Shown one piece after another: positions 3,971 to 20,101 of a stretch of DNA of 20,291 nt. The position numbers and the translations under genes are program-made. A model generated the notes under the pieces. The model saw nothing but the letters and a program-made list of their open reading frames with translations, had not been told where the DNA came from and ran no database searches. The first letter of the stretch is position 1; each line of letters begins with the position of its first letter. This stretch comes from a virus. The stretch is from positions 1 through 20,291 of IMG/VR virus record IMGVR_UViG_3300023223_000257. One strand, 5' to 3'.

Positions 3971-6634
3971 ATGAACGTAGTAAATTCACATAGAAGAATT
4001 TTACGTCGTGATCCCACACTAACTATTACAATCCGTAAACAGTGGGTTACCGAGGGTAACAAACGTATCAATACAATCAAGCGGTTTATCCGGGAAACCA
4101 TTGTCACTAACGATGCATTCGGATTAAAAGAACGCCCCCTGCTTTCATTCCTTGCCGCTGCTCCGGTAGGTGCATTTGATCAACCATCGGATGCAGAAAA
4201 ACTTGTTGCCTTTTCCCTATGGCTTAAGCAGCAATTCAATACCGAGTTTTTACAATTACGCGTGAACCCGTCTACCGGACAGATAATCCGTATCGATCCT
4301 AATTGGACACAGAAATATGTGGACAGGGCCTATCTCATGGGTGTTAAGAATGCTAATCGTCAATTAAAGAAAACGGGCATCGATCCAGCAGTTGAACCTG
4401 TTCCAGGCAGCCGCCCCCGTGTAACGCTTGCCGGGATATTAGCCATACCAATTCATCGGCAAGGTATTTCTGCTATGAGAGAACGTGTATTAAACGAATT
4501 AGACGGCATCGCCAATGCCACCCAGCAACAGGCTACAAGAGTTTTAGCCGATGGCTTAGCCCGTGGCGATACACCCGCACAGCTTACACGTTCTATAAAC
4601 GAGGTTATGGATAAGGTAGCCAAACAACGGGCAACGGCTCTGGCGTTAACAGAGACAGTAAGGGCCCATGCAGAGGCCCAATTAAACCAGTTTGAGGCAT
4701 TTGGCATTACGGAAGTGACTGCTATAGCGGAATTTACCACTCAAGGTGACGAATTTGTATGTCCTATCTGCCTCGCTCTTGAGGGCCGCTTGTTTCCCAT
4801 AAACGAGGCGCATGGAATTATACCTGTACATGTAAGATGTGTAGGGGGCGAGACAAGGGTAAATGCGGTTGATGCATCGAAAGCCATTAGAACCTATTAT
4901 ACTGGTGAATTACTAACCCTCGAACTTGAGGACAGGGTAATTGAATGCACGCCTAATCATATATTCTTAAGCCATCATGGATTCTTTAAGACCCAGGATT
5001 TTCGTGTTGGTGCCTCTTTATTGTGTCAAGCTTCGACGGATGGCCATACATATGCTACAAAGATAGAATCGTTTTTCGCTGAGGAAAGCCACGTTCATGC
5101 CTTACAGGGCAATCTCGATCTGCATGGTGATGGCCCTAATTGTAGTGGTTTATGGATGTCTTTTCTTAGGCAAGGAGACTATTCATCACACGATAATGAT
5201 AAATTCTTTAGAGAAATTAACGAGTCATTTCCATATGATAGCAGAGAGGATAAACCACGCAATATCGATGAGGTTCTGATAAATCAAGAGATAATCACCG
5301 ATGCCATGGACGGCCAGGGATTAGAGCTTAAAGAGATTAAGGCTATTAAGACTCGCCATGTCGAGAATTATCCTGTCTATGACATGGAAACAGATAGCTC
5401 TCTCTATCTTGCCGAGGGCATTGTATCAAGCAATTGTGCATGCTTCTGGAGCATTGTAGGTGTACAGGAGGTGCGAGATAGGGAACCTGTATCTGAAAAG
5501 AAATTCTTAACCCCGCCCAGTGATAGGTTCAGGGGTAAGGATGGTAAGGTTCGGCCGAGCCAGGACAAGACAGAGGCAGAGGTAGCCGACATCATAGGCC
5601 AGCCGTTACCACCACGGAATCTTGAACAGCAGCCTGTTATTGTGCCGATTATCCTTGAGGCTAAAGAGCCGTTACCTGCCTTTGACGGGCTAGACGGCGA
5701 ACCAGGAACCCCCGGCGTACCTGGAACAGGTATCCAACATATGGAAATCCTTAAAAGGGATTTATTGATTTACCTGACAAACGGCAGCGGTTATCGGTTT
5801 GAGCATTTCCTCGGACTGCCGGGTACAAGCATTATCAATGCTGAAATAAATGAGCACGGTGAATTAATACTATCCTATGATGACGATAAGCAAGACAATC
5901 TAGGACGTATACAGGGGCGTGACGGCATTTCTATGACGGATGCAACTCTTAAACAAGGTGAACTAATAATTGAAACCAGCGACGGCACTGAGCTTAATCT
6001 AGGCAATGTCATAGGTGATTCAGTAAAGGGTACACCGGGGATAAACGGAACGGATGGTATCGGGGTTTCTGATGTTGGAATAGTGGGTACCAGACTATTC
6101 ATGAGAATGAGTAATGACAACATCTTGGACTTGGGTGATGTAAAGGGCGAAAAGGGTGATCCAGGCCCAAGCATAGTAGGGCCCGCTCTATTAGATGTTA
6201 AATTAATGGAAAATAACAGTTTTACATTCTATCTTGATGATGGTACTGAGATACAGACTAACGAGCTTGAACTTAATCATATAGGCTTTGTTGAGGCAAT
6301 AGAGTTTGATCCGGTTCGCAATGCAATACGCTGGCGCGTCCGTGGAGTATGGAGTGACTTTATACCTCTAGGTACAAGCGGAGGAGGTGGGGGCGGTATA
6401 AGGACACTGACAAGCTCTGATGGTTCTGTAACGCTTGTGCCTACCAGCGGTACGGGCAGCACAGTGGATTTATCTGCGGGCGGCGGTGATCCAGAGGATC
6501 ACGGCTTTGATAGGTGCATTGATTTTGCTTTTATACTTAAAGAGGATTTTACCTATACAACTGATGGTTGGGAATTAAAAGCCGGTGGTAGTATTGAATT
6601 TACTTCTGGTTCACACATAACGATAGTAGGATAA
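3971..6634 (+). CDS. Minor head/head morphogenesis protein (SPP1 gp7-like) with intein and collagen-like C-terminal extension
   Basis: The 887-residue product has three parts. Residues 1-289 plus 489-500 form an SPP1 gp7-like (phage Mu F-like) head morphogenesis domain. It has RRILRRDPT at the start, a helical core (ATALALTETVRAHAEAQLNQ) and the metal-type motif C264-P-I-C267 ... H287 ... CxC. That CxC is split by an intein at residues 290-488; splicing would restore VHVR joined to CACFW. Residues about 571-768 carry short collagen-like Gly-X-Y runs (573-587, about 688-696, 726-734) alternating with beta modules of the pattern (G)ELxxxxxDGTELxLGxVxG. A six-glycine linker lies at 804-809. After splicing the protein would be about 688 residues. 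The gp7 domain probably sits at the portal vertex, and the extension looks like a head fibre or trimerising spike. There is no in-frame alternative start upstream; the start lies right behind a hairpin and T run and has no visible binding site. Confidence 0.85.
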   Translation: MNVVNSHRRILRRDPTLTITIRKQWVTEGNKRINTIKRFIRETIVTNDAFGLKERPLLSFLAAAPVGAFDQPSDAEKLVAFSLWLKQQFNTEFLQLRVNPSTGQIIRIDPNWTQKYVDRAYLMGVKNANRQLKKTGIDPAVEPVPGSRPRVTLAGILAIPIHRQGISAMRERVLNELDGIANATQQQATRVLADGLARGDTPAQLTRSINEVMDKVAKQRATALALTETVRAHAEAQLNQFEAFGITEVTAIAEFTTQGDEFVCPICLALEGRLFPINEAHGIIPVHVRCVGGETRVNAVDASKAIRTYYTGELLTLELEDRVIECTPNHIFLSHHGFFKTQDFRVGASLLCQASTDGHTYATKIESFFAEESHVHALQGNLDLHGDGPNCSGLWMSFLRQGDYSSHDNDKFFREINESFPYDSREDKPRNIDEVLINQEIITDAMDGQGLELKEIKAIKTRHVENYPVYDMETDSSLYLAEGIVSSNCACFWSIVGVQEVRDREPVSEKKFLTPPSDRFRGKDGKVRPSQDKTEAEVADIIGQPLPPRNLEQQPVIVPIILEAKEPLPAFDGLDGEPGTPGVPGTGIQHMEILKRDLLIYLTNGSGYRFEHFLGLPGTSIINAEINEHGELILSYDDDKQDNLGRIQGRDGISMTDATLKQGELIIETSDGTELNLGNVIGDSVKGTPGINGTDGIGVSDVGIVGTRLFMRMSNDNILDLGDVKGEKGDPGPSIVGPALLDVKLMENNSFTFYLDDGTEIQTNELELNHIGFVEAIEFDPVRNAIRWRVRGVWSDFIPLGTSGGGGGGIRTLTSSDGSVTLVPTSGTGSTVDLSAGGGDPEDHGFDRCIDFAFILKEDFTYTTDGWELKAGGSIEFTSGSHITIVG
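4838..5434 (+). mobile_element. Mini-intein (Hint domain), 199 residues, inside the minor head protein
   Basis: The first residue is C290, starting CVGGETRVNA (intein block A). Block B is T327-P-N-H330, with the TxxH pattern, followed by HGFFKTQDFRVGASLL. The C-terminal blocks F and G read VYDMETDSSLYLAEGIVSSN, ending in N488 with C489 as the first residue after the intein. Cys1, the TxxH histidine, the terminal Asn and Cys+1 are all present. The usual penultimate His is Ser487. The insert of about 70 residues between the splicing blocks, including L384-HGDG, has no recognisable LAGLIDADG or HNH endonuclease. It lies exactly within the CxC metal-binding motif of the host domain, the kind of conserved site inteins favour. 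Confidence 0.85.
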
Positions 6635-6637
6635 GAC

Positions 6638-7378
6638 ATGGCATCAGTATTCGAATTAGGATTAGTCGGAGCAGTACCAACACGTCCTGCTCTTGGTTCA
6701 TTCCATCTTTATGTATTGTCTACCGATAGCAACAGATACCTACAGACGAGTACAGCAGAAATAAACCTTGCTAATTTGGGGGATATGACGCAAGCGGTAT
6801 ATGATGCTGCCGGGGTTAGCGAGCAGCTTGTAGGCCTTACTGCATCCCAAGCACTCACAACTAAATCTGTCAACGGGGTAACACTTACTGATGCAGGCTC
6901 GGCTACTAATTTTCTGAATGAGGCTGGGGATTATGTATCTATCGGCGCAATCAATGATTTTTATCAGGCATACGATTCAGCCGGAGTAACAAATCCGAAT
7001 AGTGTTACGCCTGTAGCGATTCCATTTGCTACTACTGAACAGGGGCAGAGTTGGATTACAGATACAAGCGCCACACTAAAGACAATCAATACAACTGGTG
7101 TATATGCGATTTCCTTTGTAATCAATATAGAAAAAACAACCGCAAACTCAGCTACATTACAATTCGATTTATCGGTAAATGGTGTACTAACTGGATTCTT
7201 TGATGTATTCGGTGAGGTAACCGGCAACGATCATGCATCTTATCAAGGTGTTGGACGTGTGCGTTCGCTTACCGCTACTGATACTCTTGAGATAGAGGGG
7301 TTCAGAATTAAGGGAAATTCCAATACAATAACAACCATCGCAGATAATACGCGATTAACAATATTCAGGTTATCATAA
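6638..7378 (+). CDS. Virion protein with C1q/TNF-like C-terminal beta domain (246 aa)
   Basis: The N-terminal part (residues 1-100) resembles tail-fibre or decoration adaptors: SFHLYVLSTDSNRYLQTS, then an Ala/Thr-rich helix and a SVNGVTLTDAG turn. Residues about 125-246 read as a jelly roll of the C1q/TNF type, with VTPVAIPFATTEQG, the strand GVYAISFVINIEK, LQFDLSVNGVLTG and the closing NTRLTIFRLS. Such domains are common in phage structural proteins and form trimers. It directly follows the collagen-like gene, with GGATAAG just upstream of its ATG, and its stop overlaps the next ATG (TAATG). A virion surface role is inferred from fold and context; the exact location (head or tail) is not shown. 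Confidence 0.6.
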   Translation: MASVFELGLVGAVPTRPALGSFHLYVLSTDSNRYLQTSTAEINLANLGDMTQAVYDAAGVSEQLVGLTASQALTTKSVNGVTLTDAGSATNFLNEAGDYVSIGAINDFYQAYDSAGVTNPNSVTPVAIPFATTEQGQSWITDTSATLKTINTTGVYAISFVINIEKTTANSATLQFDLSVNGVLTGFFDVFGEVTGNDHASYQGVGRVRSLTATDTLEIEGFRIKGNSNTITTIADNTRLTIFRLS

Positions 7379-8004
7379 TGCCAGCATTCTTTCATTGTGT
7401 AGATATTGATGGGGTGAATATAGCACTTCAGGTGGACACCAGCGATCCGGTTACGCCTATTTCCCAGGCCGATTTTGTAACAGGAGATATCACAAATCCA
7501 TTAGTTGGTAATCAAAACGTATTCCTGTTCAAATACACGGGCACCGCCTCTAATGGTTCAACAGATGGCACCATGATAGCGGTGGATGATGAGGTAATCA
7601 GTTTCAAAGCGTTAATGCTGATGAATGCCGATACCGTCAAGCTAGACGATATCCCTGAGTCTGCTGCATTAGCATCTACAACAGATGCTACACCTACGGT
7701 TATTGGGGCATTACCAGTCAGGGAGGATGTATCATTACTGGTGACTGTAGCAATCCACGCGGCTCGTACCGATGCTTCTGAGGAAACGGCATATTGGGTT
7801 AGGAGATATACCTTTATCCGAATCACTACCGGAGCATTGGCCGTTGAAAGTTCGAAATTAATAGATAAAAATAATCCAGGTGGTATGAATGCAGTGCTTG
7901 TAGTTTCTGGTAATTATATACATGCTCAGGTAACTGGTTCGGCTGCCGAAACATGGAAATGGGCAATAGCCGAATTAAAAATAGATACAATGGAGCTTTC
8001 GTAA
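7378..8004 (+). CDS. Beta-rich phage virion protein (208 aa)
   Basis: The N-terminal half starts PAFFHCVDIDGVNIALQVDTS and is polar and beta-rich. Residues about 95-208 carry a pattern common in phage virion beta domains. It opens with (T)VIGALPVREDVSLLVTVAI, continues with a charged turn and AYWVRRYTFIRI, and ends NYIHAQVTGSAAETWKWAIA. This pattern usually sits at the C-terminus of tail or head decoration proteins. The start overlaps the previous stop, and the following ATG is two bases past its own stop. The domain is recognised from pattern memory only. The role is probably surface decoration or fibre. Confidence 0.55.
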   Translation: MPAFFHCVDIDGVNIALQVDTSDPVTPISQADFVTGDITNPLVGNQNVFLFKYTGTASNGSTDGTMIAVDDEVISFKALMLMNADTVKLDDIPESAALASTTDATPTVIGALPVREDVSLLVTVAIHAARTDASEETAYWVRRYTFIRITTGALAVESSKLIDKNNPGGMNAVLVVSGNYIHAQVTGSAAETWKWAIAELKIDTMELS

Positions 8005-8005
8005 C

Positions 8006-8521
8006 ATGGCTGAGTTAGACAGAACACAGCTTGGCGTAATGGATGTAGTCTCTGTTGATGCCGATCCAACGTCAACATCCGTAGATGCTCTTACTGGTAG
8101 CCTGATTACTTTTAATGGTGAATATTATTGTAAGATAGATGATGGGGATACAACCAACAGCGTCAAAATAAGCGTAATGAATGTAGCCGGGGCTTATACA
8201 AAGCAGCAAAACATAGTACAGGCTACTCTTTCTGATGGCGCTAATATTGCGTGGGATCTTGATACAGATCAGAGCAGCATCGTAACGCTTGCAGGCAACA
8301 GGACACTGGATAACCCGACGAACCAGAAAGCCGGTGGAACTTATGCGCTGATTGTCAAACAGGATGCTACCGGGGGTAGAACACTTGCGTATGGAACCGT
8401 GTACAAATTTCCAGGTGGCACCGCGCCAACATTGAGTACAGCTGCGAATGCCATTGATTTGCTAACGTTCATCTCAGACGGAACTGATATGTATGGAGTT
8501 GCAACCCTTGCATTCAGCTGA
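8006..8521 (+). CDS. Phage virion beta protein (171 aa)
   Basis: Residues about 75-171 match a widespread phage fibre/decoration domain. Its signatures are LAGNRTLDNPTNQKAGGTY, then ALIVKQDATGGRTLAYG, then KFPGGTAPTLSTAANAID and LLTFISDGTDMYGVA. This beta domain occurs at the ends of many tail-fibre and collar proteins. The first 70 residues contain VSVDADPTSTSVDALTG and look like an attachment segment. The stop TGA at 8519-8521 shares its A with the next ATG, so translation is coupled. Its family is more secure than its place in the virion. Confidence 0.65.
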   Translation: MAELDRTQLGVMDVVSVDADPTSTSVDALTGSLITFNGEYYCKIDDGDTTNSVKISVMNVAGAYTKQQNIVQATLSDGANIAWDLDTDQSSIVTLAGNRTLDNPTNQKAGGTYALIVKQDATGGRTLAYGTVYKFPGGTAPTLSTAANAIDLLTFISDGTDMYGVATLAFS

Positions 8522-9447
8522 TGATATTACTACCTATAAGTCTATTTAATGGTGGTGTAGCTGTTGATACTACGTTTGGCTCTACATGGAAAACAGACAA
8601 TGCAGGCGTCTCAAATGACGATCAGATTTCCTTACCATTGGTATCTACAGGGACATACAGTTTCACAGTTGATTGGGGTGATGGTAATGAGGATACGATT
8701 ACAACTTGGGATGATGTAGCAAAAACCCACACCTATGCGTCCACCGGCACCTATACCGTAGTAATTACTGGACAATGCGAGGGTTGGAAATTCAATGGTG
8801 GTGGCGATAAGACAAAGATATTAACAATCGATAATTGGGGAACCGACTTAAAGCTAAATACTACAGCCTCATTTAGCGGGTGTTCTAATCTTGTAATAAC
8901 TGCCGATGATGTTCTCGCTCTTAATTCTGTTGATGCTGGTAGTGCTTTATTTTATCAATGTTCAAGTCTTACTACAATTCCAGGCATAGAAAATTGGACA
9001 GGTTGGGGTAGTATCAATACTTTATTGTGGGGATTCCGTGCTTGTACAAATCTAAACGAACCGGGCATAGGCAGTATTGATACGAGCGGATGTGCTGTTT
9101 TCACATCTATATTCCGAGATTCCAGCAGTTTTAACCAGCCGTTGACTTGGGATACAGGCCTAAATACAAGCTTTTCGCATGCGTTTAGAAATGCGACATC
9201 ATTTGATCAGGATATAGGGGCCCTTGATGTAACCGCGCTTACTGCCGCCGCAAGCATGTTTACTGGTGTAACTCTTTCGACTGCTAACTATGATGCGCTA
9301 TTGACAGGTTGGGATGCCCAGGCGGTTCTTGATAGTGTTTCATTTAATGGCGGTTCATCACTTTATTCAGCAGGGGCACCAGCCACAGCGCGTGCAGCAT
9401 TAATAGCGGATCACAGCTGGAGCATCGTGGATGGAGGGGCTGCATGA
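8521..9447 (+). CDS. PKD plus BspA-like leucine-rich-repeat surface protein (308 aa)
   Basis: Residues about 40-82 form a PKD-type Ig-like domain with the hallmark D51-WGDG and the closing HTYASTGTYTVVITG. Residues about 100-285 are BspA-like/DUF285 repeats. They show FSGCSNLVI, LFYQCSSLTTIPGIENWTGW, GFRACTNLNEPGIGSIDTS and FRDSSSFNQPLTWDTG, followed by FRNATSFDQDIGALDVT and the ending ALLTGWDAQ. In bacteria this domain pair occurs in secreted adhesins. No signal peptide is convincing (MILLPISLFNGGVA is short and lacks basic residues), which fits a virion component. Located among other virion beta proteins, it may bind host or mucus glycans or proteins. Architecture is confident; the role is inference. 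Confidence 0.75.
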   Translation: MILLPISLFNGGVAVDTTFGSTWKTDNAGVSNDDQISLPLVSTGTYSFTVDWGDGNEDTITTWDDVAKTHTYASTGTYTVVITGQCEGWKFNGGGDKTKILTIDNWGTDLKLNTTASFSGCSNLVITADDVLALNSVDAGSALFYQCSSLTTIPGIENWTGWGSINTLLWGFRACTNLNEPGIGSIDTSGCAVFTSIFRDSSSFNQPLTWDTGLNTSFSHAFRNATSFDQDIGALDVTALTAAASMFTGVTLSTANYDALLTGWDAQAVLDSVSFNGGSSLYSAGAPATARAALIADHSWSIVDGGAA

Positions 9448-13783: not shown

Positions 13784-14344
13784 ATGGAAAAAAGAACATT
13801 TCGCTTATTGAGCGGCACCTATACCTATTTTGAAGATGATGAAAAGATTACCATTACTAAAGGCCAGAAGGTTGATAGTGATGAAGATTTACACCTACGT
13901 TATGTAAACAAGTTTCAATTACTTGATCCAAACGCAGTCTCTATTACCGACGATCCCGATACCATTAACCTTGAGCCTATGCATAAAGGCCATGGCAAAT
14001 ACGTTGTTATTAATAAAGTCACAGGCAAGGAAATTAATGAGGGCGGCTATCTTACTAAAGATCAGGCTTACGAATGGTGCGGCCTAGAAGTCCCTGCATC
14101 CAAGCCTAAGGCTCCTCACACTCCTAAAGAGCCAGCTACGCTTGAAATCGGCAATATTGTCAGGCATAAATGCGGCCAAGGCATAGACGATGGCTTTGGT
14201 ATAATTACTGAAATTAATGATGATATACTGACGCTAAAGAATGATAGCGATGATCCTGAATGGACTATTGATAAAACTGATGTTGTCGGGGTTGTCGATG
14301 AACTGCCAAATGAACCCAAAATTGAAGAAGACGAACTTGTCTGA
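13784..14344 (+). CDS. Small head-associated protein with SH3-like C-terminal segment (186 aa)
   Basis: It starts with AAAGGA upstream of the ATG. The N-terminal part (FRLLSGTYTYFEDDEKITIT, then KGQKVDSDEDL and VNKFQLL) has the 'G-x-Y-x(n)-KG-x-V-x-S-x-x-DL-x(n)-NKF' layout often seen in the short gene after phage major capsid genes. The middle has VINKVTGKEINEGGYLTKDQA. The C-terminal third (IGNIVRHKCGQ, then DDGFGIITEINDDILTLK) looks like a KOW/SH3 barrel. It may be a capsid accessory protein. The next gene begins inside its last codons. Confidence 0.55.
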   Translation: MEKRTFRLLSGTYTYFEDDEKITITKGQKVDSDEDLHLRYVNKFQLLDPNAVSITDDPDTINLEPMHKGHGKYVVINKVTGKEINEGGYLTKDQAYEWCGLEVPASKPKAPHTPKEPATLEIGNIVRHKCGQGIDDGFGIITEINDDILTLKNDSDDPEWTIDKTDVVGVVDELPNEPKIEEDELV

Positions 14345-14996
14345 AAAATGGTGGGTTGCTCCTAGGATTTGGGAAGGGGGTACGGCCTACATCATTGGCG
14401 GTGGCCCATCATTAAAAGACTTCGACTTTTCGCCTATCCACGATAAGCATACAATCGGTTGTAACGATGCGTATGCTCTTGGACCGTGGGTAGACATCTG
14501 TTATTTCGGCGATATCGCTTGGTTTGATATGCATTGGGTACGCTGGGTTTATTACAACAAAAAACAACGTATCCCCGGACTACTGCAATATGGTGGGCTC
14601 ATAGCTTGCTGTAACGAGAAATTCCTTAACAAAGATGGTAGTCAAAAGTACAAGCGTGTGAAGGTACTTAAGCGATATCATGAGGGTATTATGACTCTAC
14701 CTGGGTGTATTGCATGGAACGCTAACACCGGGGCAAGTGCAATTAACTTGGCTATCATCCTTGGCTGTAAGCGGGTGGTGCTCTTGGGCTTTGATATGAA
14801 GCTAAACGAAAAAGGTGACGGTAACTACCATATCAACCTAAAAGACAAGCCAAAGAAAGAATCGTTTGCGAGGTTCATGAAATACATGCCCAAGGTTAAG
14901 GCTGGTGCAGATTTACTTGGGGTAGAGATAATCCAGACTACCAAAGATTCTGCGTTAGATATTTTCCCATATAAACCATTAGCGGAGGTAGTCTAA
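14310..14996 (+). CDS. DUF115/MptE-like Rossmann protein, probable glycan-related enzyme
   Basis: The motifs TAYIIGGGPSL, TIGCNDAYALG, YFGD.AW, then TGASAINLAIILGCKRVVLLG and FDMKLN are those of DUF115/MptE-like proteins. These share a Rossmann fold with sialyltransferase-like and pterin pyrophosphokinase enzymes and commonly occur in phage head-gene regions and in surface glycosylation (Maf-type) loci. The conserved part begins at about 14340. Two starts are plausible: ATG at 14310, or TTG at 14337 with GAAGAAG upstream and overlapping the preceding stop. The frame stays open up to an ATG at 14241, but that would overlap the previous gene by about 100 nt. It is the first gene of the accessory block. 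No substrate can be deduced. Confidence 0.7.
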   Translation: MNPKLKKTNLSEKWWVAPRIWEGGTAYIIGGGPSLKDFDFSPIHDKHTIGCNDAYALGPWVDICYFGDIAWFDMHWVRWVYYNKKQRIPGLLQYGGLIACCNEKFLNKDGSQKYKRVKVLKRYHEGIMTLPGCIAWNANTGASAINLAIILGCKRVVLLGFDMKLNEKGDGNYHINLKDKPKKESFARFMKYMPKVKAGADLLGVEIIQTTKDSALDIFPYKPLAEVV

Positions 14997-14998
14997 TC

Positions 14999-15364
14999 AT
15001 GGCTTACGGATATGAATTAGTTTTAGATTTACATAATTGCAAGGCATTCCCCCTAGATAGAGATGATTTAACAATGTTTCTTATTGAGCTTTGCAGAGAA
15101 ATTGATATGAAGCGTGAGGATTTGCACTTTTGGGATTACCATGATGATCCCGAGGGCTATGAGGCTGCACCGGCACACCTTAAAGGCGCGTCCTGTACTC
15201 AATTCATAAAGACAAGTACTATTGTTATCCATACCCTTGATGATATGCAGGAGGCGTTCATTAACGTCTTTTCATGTAAGGAATTTGATGCCGATATAGA
15301 TAAATGGATAGCAGCATATTTCGGTGCGGATATAAGGCGTTCAACTATGATCGAGAGGGGTTAA
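14999..15364 (+). CDS. SpeD-like pyruvoyl decarboxylase homologue (121 aa)
   Basis: The fold pattern is that of bacterial class 1B S-adenosylmethionine decarboxylase (SpeD): GYELVLDLHNC at the start, then KGASCTQFIKTSTIVIHTL, then INVFSCKEFD, and YFGADIRRSTMIERG at the end. Compared with Thermotoga maritima SpeD (Ser55, Glu62-Ser63, His68, Cys83), the equivalents here are Ser65, Thr72-Ser73, His78 and Cys93, with identical spacing. So the pyruvoyl-forming Ser, both processing residues and the proton-donor Cys are kept, but the Glu of the self-cleavage bond is Thr. SpeD makes decarboxylated AdoMet for spermidine synthesis, and some homologues act on ornithine or arginine instead. No other polyamine gene is present. 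It lies two bases after the previous stop and one base before the DUF3326 gene. Confidence 0.78.
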   Translation: MAYGYELVLDLHNCKAFPLDRDDLTMFLIELCREIDMKREDLHFWDYHDDPEGYEAAPAHLKGASCTQFIKTSTIVIHTLDDMQEAFINVFSCKEFDADIDKWIAAYFGADIRRSTMIERG

Positions 15365-15365
15365 C

Positions 15366-16361
15366 ATGAATGTAGTAATGATAATTCCTACGGGCTTGGG
15401 TTGTGCGATTGGCGGCCATTCCGGGGATGCCACTCCAGCAGCAAGACTATTAGGTGCGGCTTGCGATAATCTTATATTGCATCCTAACGTAGTGAACGCC
15501 TCAGATATAAATGAGATGCCTATGAATGCGTGGTACGTAGAGGGCAGTATCTTAAATAGGTTCCTTGCCGGTGATTGTTTATTATCTCAACCAAAGTCGA
15601 ATAAAATTTTAGCTATATCAAATGACTTACGATATTCAATTATCAATGGCGTAAATTCTACACGTTCTACATTGGGCATAGACATAACCCTTATGAAACT
15701 GAATACCCCTATTGAGATGTTTGCTGAGTTTAACGCAGATGGCACAGCGGGCGGCTATCATTTAGGTTCTGATGAGGCATTTGGACAAATTAATAAATCG
15801 GGAGAGGTGTTTGATGCCATAGCGATACTTACGCCTATTACCATGAATATAGATGAGGCGCATACTTATTTCAAAGAGGGCGGGGTTAATCCTTATGGCG
15901 CGGTTGAGGCTATGCTATCGCGGGTATTCGCCGAATACTTTTGTATGCCTGTCGCCCATGCACCTATTGAATTAGAAGAGAGGGCGGATGTACGTCTTAA
16001 TGATGTAATTCCAGATGCCCGTATATCATCTGAGGTTATTGGTGGACACTCACATAGTGTTTTTAAGGGCTTATCTAAAGCACCAAGGCCAATACAAGAT
16101 ACAGGACAGTATAATATGAGTAGCAAAAATATTGACTGTATGGTAAGCCCTATGTGTTACGGAAGGCCACATATGCATTGTGAAAGCCAAGGTATCCCGA
16201 TTATTTATGTTCGGGATAATTATACGCATAATCCGTGGGTACCGGAGCCAGACAATATTATTGTTGCAAATTACTACGAGGCTGCGGGTAAGATTTTAGC
16301 TATGAAAGCGGGTGTGGAATATCTTGCTCCTCCCGAACTAAAAATAATACAGGGAGCCTAA
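15366..16361 (+). CDS. DUF3326 family protein (331 aa)
   Basis: The N-terminus reads MIIPTGLGCAIGGHSGDATP, then AACDNLILHPNVVNASDINE and AWYVEGSILNRFLAG. This is the hallmark of DUF3326, a family of unknown function known mainly from cyanobacteria, algae and plants. Further matching elements are the RSTLGIDI segment, EGGVNPYGAVEAMLSR, the CMPVAHAP motif and the late GLSKAPRPI. The Gly-rich PTGxG..IGGxxGD start suggests nucleotide or cofactor binding, but this is inference. GAGGGG lies before its ATG. It sits between the SpeD-like gene and a small Cys protein in one tight transcript. Its presence in a phage head region is unusual. Confidence 0.75.
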   Translation: MNVVMIIPTGLGCAIGGHSGDATPAARLLGAACDNLILHPNVVNASDINEMPMNAWYVEGSILNRFLAGDCLLSQPKSNKILAISNDLRYSIINGVNSTRSTLGIDITLMKLNTPIEMFAEFNADGTAGGYHLGSDEAFGQINKSGEVFDAIAILTPITMNIDEAHTYFKEGGVNPYGAVEAMLSRVFAEYFCMPVAHAPIELEERADVRLNDVIPDARISSEVIGGHSHSVFKGLSKAPRPIQDTGQYNMSSKNIDCMVSPMCYGRPHMHCESQGIPIIYVRDNYTHNPWVPEPDNIIVANYYEAAGKILAMKAGVEYLAPPELKIIQGA

Positions 16362-16363
16362 TC

Positions 16364-16702
16364 ATGGCTAAGAAAAAGATAATACCTAAGATATATGGTG
16401 TCTATCAGCATCAGGGTAGGGAGTGGGTTGGTAAGGCATATCGGTTTACTAAAAAGTATAATATTGTCTATAATGGATTTAGGTTTATTAAAATCCCGGT
16501 TAAGCAGGTTATTCAGTGGTACGAGAGATGTCCACACTCACTTAAACCAGTGTCTTATTCTGAATATTGTGACAGGGTTAAACTCACGAGTTATGATGAG
16601 AAAATAATGCCTGATACTGCCATAATCGTCTATCAATGTGAATGCTGTAAAAGGATGGTATCGAGAACCAAGTGGTTGCTTAGTCACGGGAGTATAAAAT
16701 AA
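16364..16702 (+). CDS. Small basic hypothetical protein with a CxxCxC-type cluster (112 aa)
   Basis: GGGAG precedes the ATG. The product is Lys/Arg/Tyr-rich. After a basic, beta-like first half (IIPKIYGVYQHQGREWVG) comes an isolated Cys pair region (ERCPHS, SEYCDR), and near the C-terminus YQCECCKRM. The cysteines could bind zinc. The stop TAA shares its last A with the next ATG. The family is not recognised. Its conserved place between two enzymes suggests a helper role, without direct evidence. Confidence 0.5.
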   Translation: MAKKKIIPKIYGVYQHQGREWVGKAYRFTKKYNIVYNGFRFIKIPVKQVIQWYERCPHSLKPVSYSEYCDRVKLTSYDEKIMPDTAIIVYQCECCKRMVSRTKWLLSHGSIK

Positions 16703-19140
16703 TGCTATTAGAACAATGCTTATGTGGTAGTGAGAAGAGTACGAGAATAGAGCGTATGGGGCTGGACATCGATCAGTGCCTAACATGTGGGCTCTTGCGC
16801 CAGAGCGTGAACCTTTCTGAAATCGGGTATGCAGCATACTACCAAAAGGATTATCACAACGGCAAATACTATCATACCTTTGAACAGGATACCAAGGTAG
16901 CCAATTTACGGCTTGATGAGTATAAGCTAATTAAGGGTTCTGTTATCCTTGATGTGGGTTGTGGTAATGGGGCCTTTGTCATTGAGGCACGTAAGCAAGG
17001 TATAGATGCCTATGGCGTTGAGGTAGGGGAGGGGGCAAGTAAAACTGAATATACCTATTACGGGGAGTTAGCAAGCCATTGCTTTCCTACGGATCACTTT
17101 GACACCGTAACCGTGCATGATGTGTTAGAGCATTTAATTGATCCCATAACGTTTCTACAGGATGTGAGGCGCATATTAAAGCAGGGTGGTAAGCTGATAA
17201 TTGACTTGCCTAATTTTTATGTGCCTGAGGGTGATCACCATTGGAAAGAAATTGAGCACCTATGGTTTTTGAATACAGAGGAGATGATAACCATCTTACA
17301 GGGTGCAGGTTTCCAGATGGGGGATATCAAGCAACCCATTCCAAGTAAATTAGTGTTCTACTGCGTCGCACCAATTGAGGACAGAACCACCATTGTATTA
17401 CCTCCTGGTATTGGTGATAGCTGGTGGAGCCTTGTTAAGCTGCGGAGTTTCTGTGAAAAGAACCTTTTAGGCATACCAGATTGCTATTTAATGTCTGATA
17501 ACGGCAAAAAGGATAGGGCTTTACCCTTTATCCAGAGAGCACCGTTCATCCATGGGGCAGGCTTTAAGAATTACGAGAATAAGCGTCAAGACTTAATATG
17601 GCGTGAGGCTTATCTAGCCTTGGGGCCCTGTAATACACCGTTAAAAGCTCCGCGTACCATTTTCAGCAATGTAGCTGGCTGTGATTACTTTATGGCCTAT
17701 AACGGCATATTCAGGATTGGCCTTGGGCTTGATGATGTGGATACGGGCTATGCGAATGATTGGCATTTCCCTTTATTCAAATCATTAGAAGAAAAGTGGT
17801 TTGGCGAGCGGATGAGAGAGGAGATAGGGGAGTATATCATAGCTTATTTCATCGATCACGGTATGTACGGTAAATATTGGCTTAAAGAATTTCCGATTGA
17901 CGATATACGCGAAACCATGAAACTGTTGCATCAGGCTACGGGTAAGAAAATTGTTGTGATTGGTGCGGATTGGGATAAAGGCCCGTTCATTGATAAGCTG
18001 GTAGAGAACTTTGATTTCGTGGTTAATATGGTTGGTGATACGCCCTTACACGAGGCCCTTGGGCTTATCCAGTACTCAAGTGGGATGATAGGCTTTCCAA
18101 GCGGCATTACGTTCATGGGAGCCATGTACAAAAAGCCTGTTCTCTGTTTGTGGAATGATTACTTTGTTAAACAGTTTTGGGCAAAAGCGTGCCCGCCTGA
18201 GTCGATGAACAAATGGTATACCGTGCTCGGTACTAAGCATGCATACCCTGAATTGGTAAAGAACGCCTTTCTAGCGTTAAAGGACTACAAACCTATGAAA
18301 CATGACAAGCCAAAGAAAAGTGTCTCAGAACCGAAAAGAATGGCGAAAAAGACGGTAGCTGTGCCAAAGAAGCGAAAGCCTCGAAGCGATAAGGGTAAGA
18401 AACGGGGGAAGGTTGAGGTGATTGAACCTGACATAAGCGAAACCGTTATTGAGGATGATATAGCGGAGGCTGTTATACCTGAAAGGCCACCTGTTTTAGA
18501 TATACCGCCTGTGACGGTTGCCTGTGTGCTTAAATCAGGGGGTGATTTTACTGCTGATGATGTTGAGAAACTACGTAGAGGTGTAGCCCGTAATACCACC
18601 TGTGATTATAATTTCGTATGTCTTTCGGATATAGACGTACCCTGTGAGCGTATTGAATTAAAGCATAGGCTTGATGGCTGGTGGAGCAAGGTAGAGTTAT
18701 TTAGAAAGAACATATTTGATACCAGACGCATAATATACTTTGATTTGGATACGATATTTATGGATAACATAGATGCCTTATTCCAGACGGTTCACACATT
18801 CACCATGCTAGGAGCGTTTAACATTAGACGCAATCCATTCGCATCTGGCGTTATGGCATGGGAAGGGGATTGGCATTTAATCCATCGTGCGTTTATGGAT
18901 CGCAAGCAAGAGATAATGCAGAACAGAAATAATACTGATCAGTTACATATCCACCAAGTATTGCGTGAAGAGTATGGAATACAGCCTCGAAAAGTGCAGA
19001 GTATTTTGAATGTATATAGTTTCAAAAGGCATTGTAATGCGGATACCGGGCCACCTAAGGGAGCACAAATTGTCTGTTTTCATGGCAATCCGCGGCCATC
19101 CGAGGTAGAGTATCTTTGGGTAAAGGAGAACTGGAAATGA
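16702..19140 (+). CDS. Three-enzyme fusion: SAM methyltransferase, GT9-like and GT-A glycosyltransferase (812 aa)
   Basis: Residues 1-35 carry a zinc-knuckle-like C6-x-C8 ... C26-x2-C29, as in sugar methyltransferases. Residues about 75-215 are a class I SAM methyltransferase: motif I ILDVGCGNGAF at 82-92, then VHDVLEHL and LKQGGKLIIDLPNF. Residues 228 to about 530 resemble GT9/heptosyltransferase-like GT-B enzymes: TIVLPPGIGDSWW, KIVVIGADWD, LIQYSSGMIGFPSGITFMG and KPVLCLWND. A Lys/Arg-rich linker covers about 531-602. Residues 604-812 are a GT-A glycosyltransferase of GT8-like type: FVCLSDIDV, GWWSKVELF, IIYFDLDTIF with the DxD at 681-683, and a late CFHGNPRPSE. The enzyme would build and methylate a glycan. 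No frameshift is visible. Its start shares a base with the preceding stop, so it is a true in-frame fusion as assembled. Donor and acceptor sugars cannot be read from sequence. Confidence 0.82.
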   Translation: MLLEQCLCGSEKSTRIERMGLDIDQCLTCGLLRQSVNLSEIGYAAYYQKDYHNGKYYHTFEQDTKVANLRLDEYKLIKGSVILDVGCGNGAFVIEARKQGIDAYGVEVGEGASKTEYTYYGELASHCFPTDHFDTVTVHDVLEHLIDPITFLQDVRRILKQGGKLIIDLPNFYVPEGDHHWKEIEHLWFLNTEEMITILQGAGFQMGDIKQPIPSKLVFYCVAPIEDRTTIVLPPGIGDSWWSLVKLRSFCEKNLLGIPDCYLMSDNGKKDRALPFIQRAPFIHGAGFKNYENKRQDLIWREAYLALGPCNTPLKAPRTIFSNVAGCDYFMAYNGIFRIGLGLDDVDTGYANDWHFPLFKSLEEKWFGERMREEIGEYIIAYFIDHGMYGKYWLKEFPIDDIRETMKLLHQATGKKIVVIGADWDKGPFIDKLVENFDFVVNMVGDTPLHEALGLIQYSSGMIGFPSGITFMGAMYKKPVLCLWNDYFVKQFWAKACPPESMNKWYTVLGTKHAYPELVKNAFLALKDYKPMKHDKPKKSVSEPKRMAKKTVAVPKKRKPRSDKGKKRGKVEVIEPDISETVIEDDIAEAVIPERPPVLDIPPVTVACVLKSGGDFTADDVEKLRRGVARNTTCDYNFVCLSDIDVPCERIELKHRLDGWWSKVELFRKNIFDTRRIIYFDLDTIFMDNIDALFQTVHTFTMLGAFNIRRNPFASGVMAWEGDWHLIHRAFMDRKQEIMQNRNNTDQLHIHQVLREEYGIQPRKVQSILNVYSFKRHCNADTGPPKGAQIVCFHGNPRPSEVEYLWVKENWK

Positions 19141-19430
19141 ATGAAGTTACTGAAAATATAAAATCTATTAGGACAACAGTAAAGATAGAAGATGGATATA
19201 TCCGGCTCTTTGCTGATTGCGATGAGGATATTAAGGGTGCCACTCTCATGATAAATAACCATCCAGTGCCTCAGTTCATACCTCATAGTTCTAAAACGGC
19301 TGTCATGTCTCGAGTTTTAATATCTGAGCAAGATGATTATACGCAGGGCATAAGCTTAACAGTCGAAAATGCTAGGGCCATGGTAGATAAACTAAATAAG
19401 GCGATAGACGGATTATCGGAAAACCTATGA
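19137..19430 (+). CDS. Hypothetical protein (97 aa)
   Basis: The ATG at 19137 is chosen because AAGGAG lies just upstream (19123-19128); an in-frame TTG at 19116 lacks such a site. The start overlaps the last codons of the fusion gene. The product is mixed alpha/beta: TTVKIEDGYIRLFADCDED in the first half, VPQFIPHS in the middle, and a helical end (VENARAMVDKLNKAIDGL). No motif is recognised. The small size and coupling to both enzymes suggest an accessory factor of the block. Confidence 0.55.
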   Translation: MNEVTENIKSIRTTVKIEDGYIRLFADCDEDIKGATLMINNHPVPQFIPHSSKTAVMSRVLISEQDDYTQGISLTVENARAMVDKLNKAIDGLSENL

Positions 19431-20101
19431 GTGAAATGTCAGATAAAATTTTATTGGTGACTGGGTGTGCAAGATCGGGTACCTCAATGACTGCCGGGAT
19501 AATAGATATCTGCGGGGCCTTTGGCGGTAATACTGCCCCGCCTAATCCCAATAATAAAAAGGGGATGTTTGAGAACAGGCGCATAGTTAATGAGATTACA
19601 AAGCCTTACTTAAGTGCTATGGGTGTTGATCCTATGGGCCAGAACCCGCTGCCGGATATTAATAAGCTTATTCCCTTTGATTCGCTACGCAGTAAAGTAG
19701 AAAGCGTGTTCAAGCATGACGGCTACCAGGATGGGCCATGGTATTATAAGGGTGCTAAGATGTGCCTTATTTGGCCGATATTTAAGGCTGCATTCCCAAA
19801 TGCTAAGTGGATAATTGTCAGGCGTGATGATGCGGCTATAGTTAATTCATGCATGCGAACAGGCTTTATGAGGAAACACGAAACTGCGGCTGGTTGGCAA
19901 AGCTGGGTAGATGTTCATAAGCAGAGGTTCGTGGAAATGCATACGGGCGGCTTAGCTGTGCGCGAGGTGTGGCCGTCACGATTTATTGCCGGTGACTATG
20001 ACGAGATTAAAGACGCCATTAAATGGTTGGGCTTAAGCTGGCATGATGACAAAGTAAAGAAATTTGTTGATCCGAAACTATATACAGCGGGAGCAAAATA
20101 A
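19427..20101 (+). CDS. P-loop sulfotransferase (224 aa)
   Basis: The N-terminus has LVTGCARSGTSMT, the 5'-phosphosulfate-binding loop of PAPS-dependent sulfotransferases (residues 13-20). Residues 128-144 (WIIVRRDDAAIVNSCMR) form the 3'-phosphate-binding segment, with Arg132/Arg133 and Ser141 in the usual order. A helix after the P-loop and KKGMFENRRIVNE fit bacterial and phage sulfotransferases that act on carbohydrates or proteins. It overlaps the previous stop (ATGA) and the next ATG (TAATG). With the adjacent methyl- and glycosyltransferases it suggests a sulfated glycan product. The alternative, a generic P-loop kinase, is less likely because there is no DxD or lid motif. Confidence 0.82.
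   Translation: MSEMSDKILLVTGCARSGTSMTAGIIDICGAFGGNTAPPNPNNKKGMFENRRIVNEITKPYLSAMGVDPMGQNPLPDINKLIPFDSLRSKVESVFKHDGYQDGPWYYKGAKMCLIWPIFKAAFPNAKWIIVRRDDAAIVNSCMRTGFMRKHETAAGWQSWVDVHKQRFVEMHTGGLAVREVWPSRFIAGDYDEIKDAIKWLGLSWHDDKVKKFVDPKLYTAGAK

Follow-up and report, generated by a model that had tools for sequence, protein, structure and literature searches.

The stretch of viral DNA analysed here (20,291 nucleotides in full, referred to below as the window) carries a gene for a minor head protein of the MuF/SPP1-gp7 type, and window positions 4838-5434, inside this gene, encode an intein that is predicted to splice. The features of the locus are as follows.

3971..6634, + strand: gene for the MuF/SPP1-gp7 minor head protein; precursor of 887 aa, 688 aa after predicted splicing
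3971..4837, + strand: N-extein, containing the MuF domain, C264-x-x-C267 (4760-4771) and H287 (4829-4831)
4838..5434, + strand: intein, 199 aa; C1 at 4838-4840, block B (TPNH) at 4949-4960, block F/G at 5375-5434
5024..5311 (approximate), + strand: insert at the endonuclease position, intein residues 63-158; open in sense, 5 antisense stops
5117..5134, + strand: DLHGDG, a putative fossil of the antisense nuclease motif; the minus strand reads AITMQI where relatives have [VI]AVE[VI]
4838..5434, - strand: position of the predicted antisense homing endonuclease of relatives; degenerate in the window (11 stops, longest open run 34 codons)
5435..6634, + strand: C-extein, beginning with CACFW; C489 and C491 finish the HxxCxC motif

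The product of the gene matches Phage_Mu_F (Pfam, 2.5e-8, residues 190-281), TIGR01641 (NCBIfam, 9.2e-11) and PHROG_758 (9.4e-29), which bears out its initial annotation as a minor head protein. The N-extein is matched best by tailed viruses of haloarchaea (36% for Hardycor1), and the virus may therefore have an archaeal host. The C-extein runs on into collagen-like G-x-P-G repeats and then into a tail-fibre-like stretch (phrog_6049, residues 614-735); splicing would therefore seem to yield a minor head protein with a fibre-like tail attached. Elsewhere in the window, a protein with an SPFH/Band 7 domain, unusual for a phage structural region, is encoded at the contig edge (136-723), and the region downstream of the head gene (6638-9447) encodes a BclA_C-like protein and a DUF285 repeat protein with a PKD-like segment. 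Positions 14241-20101 contain sugar and small-molecule genes (MptE-like, DUF3326, a methyltransferase plus glycosyltransferase of 812 aa, and a sulfotransferase), possibly a cluster for surface modification.

The intein possesses the residues of a class 1 intein: Cys1 (C290 of the precursor), the block B motif T38-P-N-H41 (T327-H330), the C-terminal Asn199 (N488) and Cys+1 (C489); its block F/G reads VYDMETDSSLYLAEGIVSSN. This splicing frame had been proposed in the initial annotation, and every residue number given there is correct in the ORF translation. The proposed junction, VHVR joined to CACFW, holds as well, as it aligns exactly with the empty site of homologues that have no intein at this very position, e.g., Halorubrum phage Hardycor1 (VHPNCRC) and Jerseyviruses (HPN|CRS). 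The insertion does lie at the HxxCxC motif, but not inside CxC as had been stated: it falls between R289 and the first Cys, so that the wider set C264-x-x-C267...H287-x-x-C489-x-C491 is broken and CxC itself is left unsplit. The term mini-intein is likewise justified in part, as no in-frame endonuclease domain was found with Pfam (Intein_splicing gave the sole meaningful E-value), but about 96 codons of additional insert are still present. The match to PF14890 (Intein_splicing) has an E-value of 7.8e-6 and 26.2 bits, below the curated 35.8, and TIGR01445 and TIGR01443 match weakly, one at each end of the intein; a profile of inteins from the same site detects it with an E-value of 6.8e-21. In the AlphaFold model (pLDDT 81.6) the splicing core exceeds 90 and part of the insert is at ~48-55. 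The best PDB matches of this model are inteins, with the Mtu RecA intein at Z 13.3 (rmsd 1.5, 105 residues); this intein (3ifj, 2imz) and the others share the Hint fold with the window intein but reside in a different host protein. The penultimate His, which is usual for inteins though not obligatory, is replaced by Ser198. Among the Asn-ending inteins that we extracted, this residue is His in 87, Ser in 4 and Gln in 2; the window intein shares its Ser with two family members (L011 and L016) and with isolated phages, Edwardsiella phage MSW-3 for example. It could slow Asn cyclisation in the window intein.

No relatives turned up among viral contigs, phages or plasmids when the window intein was the sole query sequence. 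A DNA pattern with degenerate positions that represents the HPRC..GDT junction did retrieve them, in the form of MuF genes with an intein at the same site. In an alignment-based search, at least 547 viral stretches encode relatives of this family, and nearly all members inspected are inserted at the one MuF site, between the parts of HxxC|CxC, where the window intein also resides. A genome scan based on the closer alignment set A4 gave contigs labelled as Pseudomonas, Firmicutes, Planctomycetota, Chloroflexi, Actinobacteria, Gemmatimonadales, Spirochaetaceae and Cyanobacteria (Brasilonema), among others. Pfam recognised no sense-frame endonuclease in the ten family inteins scanned. Most relatives possess the motif D-[FL]-H-G-[DE], or a near variant of it, in the insert.

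The opposite strand of these inteins bears the signature of a coding sequence. Each of the 75 relatives extracted (268-371 aa) has, in register with its codons, an antisense frame that is open along most or the whole of the intein (241-371 codons), at a GC content from 0.40 to 0.66. The inteins use TTA, CTA and TCA, the codons that create antisense stops, at 25 of their 3650 Leu/Ser positions, and the exteins upstream in the same genes do so at 299 of 2528 (P 1.5e-89 in a Fisher test, a guide rather than an exact value because the sequences are related). In 48 of 76 inteins the antisense stop falls on codon 2, which is TTA or CTA. Furthermore, the mean pairwise amino acid identity of the insert is higher in antisense (0.385) than in sense (0.242), and of its sense codon positions the third is more strongly conserved than the first, whereas the splicing blocks have the opposite order. 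A Shine-Dalgarno-like sequence precedes an antisense ATG or GTG at antisense codon 20 in most members, and both fall within the codons of block F (HVYNLQ), which would thereby double as the start codon and ribosome-binding site of the antisense gene. Taken together, the codon statistics show protein-level selection acting on the antisense strand of the family inteins. A by-product of codon bias, considered as another origin of the open frame, is ruled out by the extein control, the codon-position conservation and the confident fold of the encoded protein described below. In intact members, the antisense gene has its start and ribosome-binding site inside sense block F, and its stop typically falls on sense codon 2 or close to it. 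It is thus entirely contained in the intein and would move together with it.

The antisense proteins of the relatives contain helix-turn-helix regions and a C-terminal domain with GPYNCDLAAxPVAVEVFGGxWH, in which YN-x-D...E is invariant and the following WH nearly so. Pfam finds HTH_58 and, under the cut-off, a weak match (0.0025) to the restriction endonuclease family MTES_1575; no PHROG or NCBIfam family covering the whole protein was found. The AlphaFold model (pLDDT 93.4) has a predicted Vsr-like catalytic fold, and its top PDB matches are the EDxHD homing endonuclease I-Bth0305I (3r3p; VIA-align Z 9.8, rmsd 2.5, 93 residues) and Vsr (1cw0, 1vsr; Z 11.1, rmsd 2.4, 113 residues), which resemble it in predicted fold and motif at 16-22% identity across the aligned part. 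The antisense ORF is therefore predicted to encode a helix-turn-helix protein with a homing endonuclease domain of the Vsr/EDxHD type. The codons of sense D[FL]HGDG, when reverse-complemented, encode antisense [VI]AVE[VI], and the sense residue is Phe or Leu because the antisense Glu is invariant. A conserved sense-strand domain had been considered for DFHGDG; it is ruled out by this reverse complementarity to the nuclease motif and by the lower identity of the insert in sense than in antisense.

Among phage records, 117 possess the antisense protein and 124 the sense intein. Named carriers include Jerseyviruses, Gordonia Vivi2, Edwardsiella MSW-3, Aaphi23, Klebsiella KpTDp1 and Mycobacterium Sejanus, and an antisense ORF of 262-319 codons with the YNxD motif is kept in 9 of the 9 named phages checked. 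In the records inspected, either the head protein alone is annotated or unnamed hypothetical ORFs are given on the opposite strand. In Salmonella phage PK2 (L122:2504-3313), for example, the antisense nuclease is entered in one GenBank record as a hypothetical ORF without a name, situated inside the gene for head morphogenesis; in the other Jerseyvirus records inspected, the head gene alone is named or short partial ORFs are present. The MuF gene of Jersey has matches in 406 records, of which 58 cover at least 80% of it and many others match both flanks alone. The site is exactly empty in SETP3 and SM86 and occupied in Jersey. These occupied and empty alleles fit the pattern expected of a mobile element, which would spread by homing.

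In the window, no open antisense frame with the helix-turn-helix and YNxD...E...WH features is left. The codon for the catalytic Glu has changed to one for Gln, and block F has lost the antisense start (CAT) and the ribosome-binding site. Given this degenerate frame, the window intein is taken to be a decayed relative of the family. Intermediate stages of decay can be found in a Thiotrichales MAG (L133:2501-3082, 194 aa) and in Brasilonema (L138:1988-2617, 210 aa), in which the sense intein is intact and the antisense nuclease shortened and interrupted by stops. In the tree, the window intein groups with L011 and L016, both of which have antisense ORFs (support 0.936), and this group sits among further inteins with antisense ORFs. 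The insert of the window intein is open in sense, whereas shuffled inserts contain 6.3 stops on average and only 0.1% of them are open, which suggests a continuing need for splicing.

We are highly confident that a large family of phage inteins with a nested, codon-aligned antisense homing endonuclease exists and that the window intein represents a late stage of its decay. The window intein itself is likely a cis-splicing class 1 (Cys1/Asn/Cys+1) mini-intein derived from such mobile inteins by loss of the nuclease. In intact members, the nuclease would cut the HxxC|CxC-coding site of an intein-less allele, the intein would be copied into the cut site, and splicing would keep the head protein functional. 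In the lineage of the window the endonuclease would have decayed, leaving a mini-intein that probably still splices and was probably kept because a failure of splicing would break the conserved motif of metal-binding type.

An ordinary mini-intein of independent origin, which never possessed an antisense nuclease and in which DLHGDG is coincidental, appears improbable to us, though several observations would agree with it. The antisense frame of the window has many stops, the identity of the window intein to its relatives is just 18-28%, and the insert as a whole is unlike the family inserts: beyond DLHGDG no similarity to them was detectable (0.1 bits, where shuffled sequences reach 3.8), and a whole-insert profile search recovered as antisense fossils the block F end and the DLHGDG hexamer alone. 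With so little similarity in the insert, descent from an antisense-nuclease intein is argued from the splicing-block tree, the common site and the six-residue motif. All three speak against an independent origin, as does the homology of the splicing domain to the same-site profile: the tree places the window intein inside the antisense-nuclease clade, the insertion site is that of the family, and an exact, position-matched D[FL]HGDG is expected by chance at roughly 1e-5 per insert (a rough estimate). The persistence of DLHGDG may reflect a recent loss of the nuclease or a role in the sense protein.

The two other alternatives concern the function of the intein rather than its origin, and we regard either as having little chance of being correct. 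A degenerate intein that does not splice or only cleaves, with a MuF product that is non-functional or works unspliced, would be compatible with the loss of the endonuclease, with the penultimate Ser and with the absence of a His ahead of block F as in GHVYNLQ. However, no nucleophile has been lost, nor has TxxH or the Asp of block F; Ser or Arg is usual at the penultimate position in the clade of the window intein, and the long sense frame is open, as it is in only 0.1% of shuffled inserts. The initial annotation had further supposed that capsid assembly depends on splicing, which could act as a switch controlled by redox state, zinc or timing. Such gating could draw on the CxxC...HxxCxC set interrupted by the insertion and on further cysteines within the intein (e.g., residues 37, 63 and 103), and the general idea was put forward for a related case by Ward et al. 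2004 (PMC517821). Against it, close relatives (Jerseyviruses) exist without the intein and intact members resemble homing elements, so that there is no need to invoke a conserved role as a switch. The presence of same-site antisense-nuclease inteins in very diverse phages, together with their presence or absence among Jerseyviruses, points to a mobile element rather than to a regulatory one. A dependence of capsid assembly on the predicted splicing is nevertheless plausible.

Classical inteins carry LAGLIDADG-type endonucleases in frame with the splicing domain, and antisense homing endonuclease genes occur in some nuclear rDNA group I introns. In the literature searched, which covered few subscription journals, we found no report of an antisense-encoded endonuclease in an intein. 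An intein without endonuclease in a MuF-type protein, and the regulatory idea, have been known since 2004: Ward et al. (PMC517821) describe such an intein in the F (gp30) protein of a Mu-like prophage of Methylococcus and propose that splicing controls head morphogenesis. The intein of Methylococcus capsulatus (Bath) resembles that of the window in its MuF-type head protein and in the lack of a recognised endonuclease; it belongs to a different phage, and the available text reports no antisense gene (PMC517821). It is similar to archaeal IF-2 inteins, and these are also the best NCBIfam match of the window intein. The ShiLan element (PMC11855218, 2025), an out-of-frame HNH endonuclease inside a phage methylase, is like the present family in that an in-frame insertion within a phage gene conceals a homing endonuclease in a different reading frame; in contrast, it is not an intein, its nuclease is HNH rather than Vsr/EDxHD and it is encoded on the same strand (third frame) rather than in antisense. 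In a review (PMC3943268), EDxHD enzymes are listed among the homing endonucleases of group I introns, whereas the gene of the present family lies antisense within an intein.

By itself, the window intein is an ordinary new member, but the family that it revealed is a new form of mobile intein. In the usual view of mobile inteins, the splicing and endonuclease domains are part of one polypeptide. With an antisense endonuclease they would be two separate proteins that are inseparable in the DNA, a selfish element bound by two overlapping frames. This would explain why the inteins of the family looked endonuclease-less and why they share the conserved DFHGDG. The predicted nuclease has gone unrecognised in isolated phages (Jerseyviruses and phages of Gordonia, Edwardsiella, Klebsiella and Mycobacterium, among others), and the Jerseyviruses with and without the element constitute a ready test system.
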